64,000 nucleotides of DNA from Candidatus Kryptonium thompsonii (GTDB lineage Bacteria > Bacteroidota > Ignavibacteria > Kryptoniales > Kryptoniaceae), in the NCBI GenBank assembly GCA_001442925.1, contig LDXX01000006.1:186001-250000 (forward strand), read 5' to 3'. Made by a program: the position numbers and the translations under genes. The notes under the pieces were generated by a model, which saw only the letters and a program-made list of their open reading frames with translations, had not been told where the DNA came from and made no database searches. Numbering within the stretch: the first letter of the stretch is position 1; each line of letters begins with the position of its first letter. Shown here one piece after another: positions 47,295 through 53,118 of the stretch.

Positions 47295-48818
47295 TCAATG
47301 GGGGTTAGCAAGTTTTTGAGCAATTGAATGTACTCTCAATTTTATAGCTTCATCCTCTGGGTTACGCTCAAGTATGAGTTTGTAGCAACTAAGAGCATCA
47401 TAGAAATTGCCTTCACCAATGTACGAAAGCACCAAAACTTTAAGGGCGCTCTCAAAAAATGGGGAATTCCGTCGGTTTAAAAAATCAACCAAAACTTTGA
47501 TAGACTCATCAAACCTTTTCAACCCAGCGAGACATGTTCCAAGGTTGTAGCGTATCTCGTCATCATCTTTAAATTTAAGCGCGTTTCTTAAGCTTTCAAC
47601 GGCATTTTCAAGTTCACCTTCAACTTGATAAATCCCTGAAAGAATCTTAAAAACATGAAATGATGGCTTTAATTTTGAAATATATTTTATAACTTGCGTC
47701 ACATTTTTATTCCCCTCTTTATATTCTTCAACAAGGAAATTTAAAAATGCTTCATAAAGTTTCTCATTTGGCAGAATTTCAGCAAGGTTTTCGTTTAATT
47801 TGTGATAATTCCCAAGTTTAAAGTAGCATATAGCTAATTTGAAGTGAATATCTCCAGGCTCGATGAAGGCTTCAATAGTAAGGTCGGAAGGTTTCCCCTT
47901 TAAAATGCTGTGAAGATTTTTCAGTGCTTTTTCAAAAAAATTTTTAGCAAGGATGAAATTTGAATCTTTCAAGTGCACGAGCCCGCCATGATAATATGAG
48001 CTTACTTGAACTGGTGCAAGTTTTATTGATTCAGTGAACCAATTGAGCGCTTGGGATGAATTACCCCTTTTGAATTCATAATTTCCAAAGATGTTGTATA
48101 TAAATGCGCGCAGTGAATCATTAATGTTTGATTTCTCGCGCGGAATTGAAATTGCTTTTTTAAGATATTTAATACCTTCCTCTTGTTCTCCAATTAAAGT
48201 TTTCGTTATGCCAATATGGTAACAGGTATGTGCATCATCTGGGTTTTCTTCGAGTTCCTCAAGTAAAATCCGTAAATTTCTTTCATATTTTTTTCGCATT
48301 GTTTCATCGTCCTGACTGTATCCAAGGTGCGTGATTGTAATGTCTGTTTTAGCAAGTTTTCCGCCAAGTTTTAAAATTGAGGAGGAAATCTGTTCGTGAA
48401 TTTTTCGCTCAAACTTTACACCGTCTATTTTTCTAAATAACCTTGGATATTCAGTGACATAGAGTTCACCGTTTTTATCTGTGCTGATTATTCTAACATA
48501 GAGACCATCAAAATTTAAGTTGAGATATTTTTTAATTTTCATCTCCTGTCCCGGATTTAACCTTTCATCGGCATCAAGGATCAGAATCCAATCACCCGTT
48601 GCATGCTTTATCGATTCATTTCTTGCCAGTGAAAAATCATTTTTCCATTCAAAGTGGTAAACTTTTGCGTTGTAAGAATTGGCAATTTCAATTGTCTTAT
48701 CTGTCGATCCAGTATCAACAATTATTATTTCGTCAACAATATTTTTCACGCTTTCAAGACATCCCGCGAGGAATTTTTCTTCATTTTTAACGATCATGCA
48801 AAGTGAGAGTTTGGGCAT
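47295..48818 (-). CDS. Family 2 glycosyltransferase with C-terminal TPR repeats
   Basis: Residues about 1-230 form a GT2 domain beginning PKLSLCMIVKNEEKFL, with IIIVDTGSTDKT and the metal-binding DxD-like ILDADE. The rest is a series of TPR-like helical repeats (about 240-507). The protein resembles SunS-like/TPR glycosyltransferases. I chose the ATG at 48816-48818 to fit the family; another ATG at 48831 adds five residues. It overlaps the 1443-residue gene by 32 nt, so the two are translated together. Confidence 0.88.
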   Translation of the reverse strand: MPKLSLCMIVKNEEKFLAGCLESVKNIVDEIIIVDTGSTDKTIEIANSYNAKVYHFEWKNDFSLARNESIKHATGDWILILDADERLNPGQEMKIKKYLNLNFDGLYVRIISTDKNGELYVTEYPRLFRKIDGVKFERKIHEQISSSILKLGGKLAKTDITITHLGYSQDDETMRKKYERNLRILLEELEENPDDAHTCYHIGITKTLIGEQEEGIKYLKKAISIPREKSNINDSLRAFIYNIFGNYEFKRGNSSQALNWFTESIKLAPVQVSSYYHGGLVHLKDSNFILAKNFFEKALKNLHSILKGKPSDLTIEAFIEPGDIHFKLAICYFKLGNYHKLNENLAEILPNEKLYEAFLNFLVEEYKEGNKNVTQVIKYISKLKPSFHVFKILSGIYQVEGELENAVESLRNALKFKDDDEIRYNLGTCLAGLKRFDESIKVLVDFLNRRNSPFFESALKVLVLSYIGEGNFYDALSCYKLILERNPEDEAIKLRVHSIAQKLANPH

Positions 48819-51800: not shown

Positions 51801-53118
51801 CCCAATTTTTATCAAGCCAATCTTTTGATTTCTCATTTGAAGAGCAATGGAAGACGATGTATTTTGAGGGCAAGTTTAATGAATCAACCCTGTCTTTTGC
51901 TTGTTTGGTTATATATACCTTTGGTTTCCCATCGATAGAAGGAAGCCCAGCTGAACGGGAAAAAGCAGAGAGCAAACTACCAAAATTAAAATAATTTTCC
52001 CCTGTTACTGCGACTTTTCCATTGATGTTGTTGAGTGGGACATTGCAGATAGGGCAAATTCTATTGTGAATATGGAGATCGATCGTTTTGTCAAAAATAC
52101 CGTTTTCCTTAAGTTCGATCCATTCAGTTAAGCAATTTACAACGATGGTTTCATCTATGTATGGATTGGACTCAATTAGTTCTTTATATTCCTCTCTGAC
52201 GCACCAAGCAATATGTGCATCAGGGTATTCTGCTCTTAAATATCGTGAGATGGGCTCACATGCGATAATATCTCCCATATGTTCAACTAAACCAACTCCA
52301 ATTTTTAAGGGCTTGATAGAGTTTTTAAATGAGGACTCATAATCAGTAAACTTTAACTTTATTTCATCTACATTTATTTTACGCCTTGCCACCACAATCA
52401 TATCTTCCCGTATAATTCCTGGCAAAACTTCAACGATATCAAGTCCTGCCCTGTCAAAAAGTAGGTATATGTTTTGCTCGCTGAATAAGAATAAATGCTC
52501 TTCAGGTTTAAACTGAAGCCATTCCTTCCCATCGCTTTTGTAATTTGGCGTTTGAAAAATGCAAATTCCATCTTCATTTAAAATTTTTGCGACGTGCTTC
52601 AGGGCTTTTATTGGGTCTGTGAAATGCTCGAGGACATCAAACCCAGCAACAACATCAAATTTTTCAATTGGTAATTCAACATCGGGAAACAACCCCGGGA
52701 TAATTTTCTCAAGTTTAAATCTGTTTTTAGCAAACTCACATGTTTTTTTATCTACTTCAATACCCACAACATTTTCAATTCCATTTTCTTTACAGAAGTA
52801 CAGAAATCCTCCGTGGGCGCAACCAATTTCTAACACTGATTCTGCGTCTGGTTTAAATGTTTTAAGAATTTTAAACCAGATTGGAATTCTATCTCTGAAA
52901 TCTATTTCAGCTCTTTCTTGAATAGATGGGTAGCCGAATTTGTTTGCCACATAATCATTCCAGTATCCATCAAAGGTATAAAAATTTTCAAGTTTTTGTT
53001 GAGATGGCGTATCTTTTACGACGAAAGTTTTACAGTTTTGACATTCATAATATGAAGGATGAATGGATGATTTTAAGATTCCCCCACACCAGCATCTGTG
53101 AGTTCCCATATCTTTCAA
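48787..53118 (-). CDS. Multi-domain protein: methyltransferase, GT9-like, WbsX-like, TPR and GT2 domains
   Basis: One 1443-residue frame holds, in order: a zinc-ribbon-like start (C9, C11, C26, C29); a SAM methyltransferase (about 90-245, [12 protein letters not shown]); a GT9/heptosyltransferase-like part (about 270-565, [13 protein letters not shown]); a WbsX/glycosyl-hydrolase-99-like part (about 590-940, [42 protein letters not shown]); TPRs (about 980-1145); and a GT2 (about 1153-1410, [19 protein letters not shown]). No signal peptide. It is divergent from the flagellin gene. A role in glycosylating flagellin or another surface glycan is inferred from this position. Confidence 0.85.
   Translation of the reverse strand: [1443 protein letters not shown]

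Follow-up and report, generated by a model that had tools for sequence, protein, structure and literature searches.

A five-domain glycan enzyme and a GmaR/SunS-type glycosyltransferase divergent from flagellin in Candidatus Kryptonium thompsonii: a probable two-gene flagellin glycosylation module

Introduction

Most of what is known about flagellin glycosylation comes from Proteobacteria and Firmicutes, in systems that add single sugars or short chains. In Listeria, GmaR transfers N-acetylglucosamine (GlcNAc) to flagellin, and recognition of flagellin has been proposed as the role of its tetratricopeptide repeat (TPR) domain (PMC9638930); in Caulobacter, the TPR part of FlmG has been shown to bind flagellin (PMC7591256). 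Proteins joining TPRs to a glycosyltransferase (GT), and fusions of methyltransferases to GTs beside flagellin, are likewise already known (PMC4875605, PMC5109656, PMC13317340). Here we analyse a 64,000-nucleotide stretch of the Candidatus Kryptonium thompsonii genome (contig LDXX01000006.1, positions 186,001 to 250,000; hereafter the window), in which a very long gene with five recognisable domains, here called the giant, and a second glycosyltransferase gene behind it, here called P2, are divergently oriented from the flagellin gene (fliC). The published description of Kryptonia mentions motility but no flagellar glycan.

We propose that the giant and P2 form a flagellin O-glycosylation module that is expressed together with the flagellar filament genes, a reading that we regard as probable. 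It is built on the domain content of the two genes, the predicted folds of P2 and of one domain of the giant (WbsX), their motifs, purifying selection, the divergent arrangement, promoter-like sites, and the pairing of P2-type genes with flagellin across the phylum.

Results

The locus has the following main parts (positions are those of the window).

47295 to 48818, minus strand: P2, a GT2 domain followed by a TPR superhelix, 507 aa from ATG 48818 (listed open reading frame, ORF, to 48833)
48787 to 53109, minus strand: giant glycan enzyme, 1440 aa from its probable start, ATG 53109
53275 to 54117, plus strand: flagellin, presumed substrate, 280 aa (Pfam Flagellin_N/C)

The giant is a single uninterrupted frame of 1443 codons (48787-53118, minus strand) as listed from a TTG, and a Pfam scan from N to C terminus finds methyltransferase, GT9, WbsX, TPR and GT2 domains. 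This bears out the preliminary description, made from the window's letters and ORFs, of five domains in one open frame with a downstream GT2-TPR gene, divergent from flagellin. Its length of 1443 residues stands for the frame; the listed TTG is probably unused, and translation probably begins at ATG 53109 (residue 4 of the listed ORF), because in the alignment the initiating ATG of the G003 orthologue, likewise 1440 aa long, falls at this codon. The flagellin start was correctly placed 156 nt away on the opposite strand (53118 to ATG 53275; 165 nt from 53109), and the 32-nt overlap between the giant and P2 holds if P2 starts at ATG 48818, becoming 47 nt from ATG 48833.

The giant occurs in four of seven congeners (the window's genome counted), always at this locus, and in all four it is divergent from flagellin-fliS-fliD-flaG with P2 behind it. 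In G002 and G004, which have no giant, P2 itself is divergent from flagellin. By sequence comparison, P2 rather than the giant is thus the conserved core of the putative flagellin-linked module.

Between the giant and flagellin lie two opposed promoter-like sites.

53136 to 53162, minus strand: sigma-28-type promoter toward the giant and P2, TAAAGCTTTAAAGAAATATTCCGATAA
53173 to 53200, plus strand: sigma-28-type promoter toward flagellin, TAAAGTAACTTGCCGTACTATCCGATAA

Each of the six congeners whose intergenic region is intact has both sites (the contig of G005 ends at the locus), with conserved cores and variable spacers, and where the giant is missing the conserved site faces P2 instead. The promoter consensus of Escherichia coli FliA is TAAAGTTT-N11-GCCGATAA; our search pattern, TAAA-N15/16-NCCGATAA, gave four matches in the window against 0.32 expected by chance, two of them in this intergenic region. 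Over the whole genome the pattern has 37 matches and its reversed control 14, so that lone sites elsewhere are not safe. FliA is encoded in the genome (215 bits against a curated cut-off of 189.6). Since the giant lies between its promoter and P2 and overlaps P2, the two genes are probably co-transcribed from the sigma-28-type promoter.

Among solved structures, GmaR is the nearest to the GT2 domain of P2 (22ao, phmmer 2.2e-34), followed by SunS (2e-23), and the acidic DxD motif of the P2 domain (D82-A-D84) is invariant among 25 homologues. The predicted structure, with a predicted local distance difference test score (pLDDT) of 93, comprises a GT-A-type domain and, after it, a long TPR superhelix, and matches SunS with Z 27.5 over 274 residues. 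GmaR is absent from the list of fold matches of this model, which is uninformative, the link to GmaR resting on the sequence match. Against the NCBIfam SunS profile TIGR04195, P2 scores 106.6 bits, short of the curated cut-off of 350.

The pairing of P2-type genes with flagellin extends through the phylum. In a survey of 296 genomes, GmaR-like GT2 genes were found in 52 and flagellin in 70; both were present in 51, the GT2 gene only in one, flagellin only in 19 and neither in 225 (Fisher p 4e-40, uncorrected for shared ancestry and therefore overstated, because related genomes are not independent). In at least 29 genomes a listed flagellin gene is no more than 5 kb from the GmaR-like gene, mostly about 1 kb away. 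The sole GmaR-like GT2 in a genome without detected flagellin is at G008:C24:74569-75138.

Beside the GmaR-like gene and fliC, families f10, f13, f17 and f19 (by Pfam) and f4 and f21 (by BLAST) have other giants, which contain GT, methyltransferase or TPR domains. Those with Pfam assignments, including one GT9-WbsX form, are as follows.

G036: 2271 aa, methyltransferase, FkbM methyltransferase, GT2, GT4, TPR
G040: 1603 aa, TPR, GT4
G231: 1462 aa, GT2, GT4, GT2, TPR
G304: 1809 aa, GT2, GT4-like, GT2, TPR
G118: 2840 aa, methyltransferases, GT9, TPR, GT2
G293: 2803 aa, TPR, GT2, GT4
G285 (= L040): 1019 aa, GT9-WbsX, flagellin-linked

The C-terminal GT2 module of the window's giant recurs, at 43-56% identity, in many flagellin-linked giants. 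In L041, a Bacteroidetes metagenome-assembled genome (MAG) of another lineage, the order is WbsX-TPR-GT2 / GmaR-like / methyltransferase-GT9-TPR / fliC, so that the five-domain set of the window's giant is split over two polypeptides flanking the GmaR-like gene. In L039, a Syntrophaceae MAG, a 3420-aa chain with GT9-WbsX and an internal GmaR-like GT2 lies 2 kb from a flagellin gene. Judged by gene content, the giant is exchangeable, different giants occupying its place beside the GmaR-like gene and flagellin in other families. In the f2 genomes, only a GmaR-like GT2 of 330 aa stands beside flagellin. The methyltransferase-GT9-WbsX-TPR order is found there (G017, 3087 aa), not near flagellin; the neighbours of the fused f2 homologues are release-factor, MacB/FtsX and ATP-binding cassette (ABC) genes, or rRNA methylase, chloride channel and another GT9 gene, and are uninformative. 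ORFs of 1409-1436 aa beside f2 flagellin were rejected as further giants, the one scanned (G011) being of receiver/PAS type with no GT domains.

The domains of the window's giant are placed as follows, all on the minus strand.

52426 to 52863: class I S-adenosylmethionine (SAM) methyltransferase domain, residues 86-231 (Pfam PF13489 Methyltransf_23, 4e-24)
51499 to 52323: GT9 domain (heptosyltransferase-type GT-B), residues about 266-540
50311 to 51342: WbsX domain, residues 593-936, predicted GH99-like TIM barrel
50365 to 50376: EWGE motif, residues 915-918, aligned to the GH99 catalytic Glu pair
49708 to 49914: TPR repeats, residues about 1069-1137 (Pfam)
48829 to 49671: C-terminal GT2 domain, residues 1150-1430

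The methyltransferase domain, preceded by an N-terminal CxC...CxxC zinc-ribbon-like segment, has a conserved motif. The GT9 domain (Pfam PF01075 Glyco_transf_9, residues 384-516, 6e-19) carries a DSGPAH motif invariant among congeners, and its N half matches PDB 3tov; the C-terminal domain matches Pfam Glycos_transf_2 over residues 1156-1275 (4e-30). Full-length orthologues in three congeners share 64-84% identity, every catalytic domain has a ratio of nonsynonymous to synonymous divergence (pN/pS) of 0.10-0.27, and the catalytic motifs are intact, which shows that the giant is a real gene under selection and no chance frame. Its linker and TPR regions diverge faster than the other parts. Between G000 and G003, the giant has the lowest synonymous divergence (pS 0.47, against 0.55-0.71 in 12 other genes of the neighbourhood), and G002 has no giant although it is nearer to G000 than G003 is by the genes compared. 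The low pS and the absence in G002 hint at exchange between lineages or at loss, and prove neither.

The WbsX domain matches Pfam PF14307 Glyco_tran_WbsX at 5e-133 (444 bits against a gathering cut-off of 25.1), a family that Pfam files separately from GH99; a profile built from 48 WbsX domains matches GH99 endo-mannosidases in the PDB (best E 0.004). In GH99 enzymes the motif EW[H/G]E carries both catalytic glutamates (PMC11025385), and in the HMMER alignment to 4acy/4acz the NEWxE motif of WbsX lines up with it (NEWHEG of 4acy). Both glutamates are retained in 47 of the 48 homologues, and pN/pS for the domain is 0.19-0.21. The AlphaFold2 (AF2) model of the domain (pLDDT 89) matches 5ngw (Z 26.6), human MANEA (6zdf_B, Z 24.5, root-mean-square deviation, rmsd, 3.3 over 283 residues) and the bacterial GH99 structures 4ad5_A (Z 23.6, rmsd 3.3 over 285) and 4acz_B (Z 23.3, rmsd 3.9 over 284). 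The domain is thus predicted to be GH99-like and its Pfam name of glycosyltransferase is doubtful; given this glycosidase fold and the catalytic Glu pair, counting it as a transferase is unsafe. Among 80 WbsX loci, the ORF is at most 450 aa long in 62, and flagellin is present at three, all with fused WbsX forms. In the 3420-aa chain of L039 (WbsX at L039:5131-6225), the catalytic motif is altered to WNSWADG and the domain is perhaps inactive.

The flagellin side of the locus continues with further flagellar genes.

54216 to 56670, plus strand: fliS, fliD, flaG and fliT (context)
56674 to 56922, plus strand: flgM-like anti-sigma-28 gene (context), whose congener orthologue is above the PF04316 cut-off

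A third sigma-28-like site (56561-56588) lies within fliT, upstream of the flgM-like gene. Beyond, at 58215-59318, is a gene for mannose-1-phosphate guanylyltransferase. The preliminary description had pointed to it 5 kb beyond the flagellin start; the gene is there, and its link to the giant did not survive comparison, as it also lies near the locus in congeners that have no giant, is off the flank in two giant-bearing ones, and is no consistent companion of the giant. We rejected it as a sign of a mannose glycan, its proximity not tracking the giant. On the other side, rodZ and DNA ligase genes come directly after P2 in G003 and G004; in the window, about 10 kb (37404-47294) separate them from P2, a lineage-specific insertion that holds DUF3592, cation efflux, DsrE, heavy-metal P-type ATPase and secreted Reg_prop propeller protein genes. 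Two further window ORFs, 2289-4442 (717 aa) and 60684-62522 (612 aa), have no Pfam match at the cut-offs used.

Discussion

Which substrate and sugars are used, in what order and with which linkages the reactions run, and that WbsX is active are matters of inference. P2 would be a polypeptide glycosyltransferase of the GmaR/SunS type, whose TPRs may hold cytoplasmic flagellin, alone or with FliS, while its GT2 domain would put the first sugar on flagellin Ser/Thr residues, likely an N-acetylhexosamine (HexNAc) as in Listeria. The giant would elongate and decorate the glycan, with GT9 and GT2 domains that would add further sugars, a methyltransferase that would methylate either the glycan or a precursor sugar, and TPRs that may recruit flagellin or P2. 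WbsX would act on an alpha-mannoside-like linkage in a trimming or transglycosylating step, or could be a transferase despite its fold. The modified flagellin would then be exported and polymerised. That WbsX works in the cytoplasm, catalysing a transglycosylation or a processing step within a multi-domain flagellin glycan assembly protein, with GH99-type chemistry put to synthesis and not degradation, is a possibility that we advance tentatively and hold to be doubtful. If true, the "WbsX glycosyltransferases" of surface-glycan loci would be alike. A variant of the proposed module, judged on its own, takes the WbsX barrel to be inactive or to have only a structural role, which leaves the giant as a methyltransferase with two glycosyltransferases. 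GH99 enzymes are usually secreted or located in the Golgi, whereas the giant is predicted to be cytoplasmic, and one homologue (L039) has lost the Glu pair; the near-universal retention of both glutamates and the low pN/pS of the domain argue the other way, and we think this variant unlikely.

Several observations weigh against the module as a whole. Two congeners have the P2-fliC pair but no giant, so that flagella in this genus do not depend on the giant; in f2 the fused homologues and flagellin are on separate contigs, which means that such proteins can serve elsewhere; no nucleotide-sugar pathway dedicated to the locus was found, and no glycosylation site was identified on flagellin. The dispensability in G002 and G004 and the unlinked f2 homologues, together with the many stand-alone WbsX proteins unlinked to flagellin, would also fit a division of labour in which only P2 modifies flagellin, while the product of the giant is some other surface glycan (O-antigen, capsule or S-layer) and its place next to flagellin is a matter of history. 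We consider this quite unlikely: the giant sits between a sigma-28-type promoter and P2, overlaps P2 and probably shares its transcript, differently built giants occupy the same place beside GmaR-like genes and fliC in several families, and no flippase or polymerase genes are among the neighbouring genes scanned with Pfam. Far less probable still is a mainly regulatory module, as with GmaR in Listeria, in which P2 would control flagellar gene expression and glycosylation would be secondary, since the match of P2 to the C-terminal GmaR structure 7x9r stops at residues 145-232, the start of the TPRs, and does not cover the antirepressor part. A search for MogR gave no match; no control genome gave a signal either, so that this is uninformative.

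The idea of a filament (flagellin) glycan enzyme, put forward in the preliminary description, is thus upheld by the opposed sigma-28-type promoters (6/6), the adjacency to fliC (4/4) and the flagellin-linked giants of other families. The accompanying picture of a one-polypeptide assembly line has to be given up, as the conserved member is the second gene, P2, still next to flagellin in G002 and G004, where there is no giant. To read WbsX as a glycosyltransferase is unsafe, in view of its GH99 glycosidase fold and Glu pair. Homologues found consistently next to O-antigen or capsule genes and not next to flagellin had been named as a refutation, and here the picture is mixed: most WbsX homologues stand alone, away from flagellin, and the fused f2 homologues are unlinked, but in this genus and in L039, L040 (= G285) and L041 the fused proteins are flagellin-linked.

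In the two-gene flagellin module as we propose it, the partner that flagellin keeps in many families of a single phylum is a GmaR-like glycosyltransferase, beside which the giants are exchangeable, and two proteins would be enough to test stepwise chain building on the filament. For WbsX, the GH99 fold calls into question the name of a large and widely annotated family. In the literature searched, no paper combines WbsX with flagellin, and none was found that describes this exact domain chain, its GH99-fold component or the arrangement, recurring through the phylum, of a GmaR-like gene with a giant.

Among described systems, GmaR of Listeria monocytogenes, a flagellin O-GlcNAc transferase and antirepressor, shares with P2 an N-terminal GT2 domain of the same family followed by TPRs, near flagellar genes (PMC9638930, PMC3150276); P2 differs in its longer TPR array, the lack of a recognisable antirepressor part, and its giant multi-domain partner. 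The S-glycosyltransferases SunS and ThuS (7msn, 7msp, 7msk) resemble P2 in the GT2 fold and the start of the helical part (Z 25-27), but SunS acts on a bacteriocin peptide, and P2 falls far under the NCBIfam SunS cut-off. FlmG of Caulobacter is by description, like P2, a soluble TPR and GT protein (PMC7591256), but its GT domain is of the GT-B type and its sugar is pseudaminic acid. The GH99 endo-alpha-mannosidases (4acy, 5lyr and human MANEA) share with WbsX the fold and the EW[H/G]E motif, whereas WbsX is only about 14% identical to them and sits inside a predicted cytoplasmic biosynthetic protein. The flagellin glycosylation islands of enterobacteria and Geobacillus resemble this locus in having GT and methyltransferase genes beside flagellin, and their GT41 enzymes often carry a methyltransferase domain (PMC4875605, PMC5109656). 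The enterobacterial islands hold one to three GTs each, and no five-domain chain with a GH99-fold domain is reported there in the literature searched; the Kryptonium locus is of the island kind in that glycosyltransferase genes adjoin flagellin, fliS and fliD, an arrangement conserved in its relatives.

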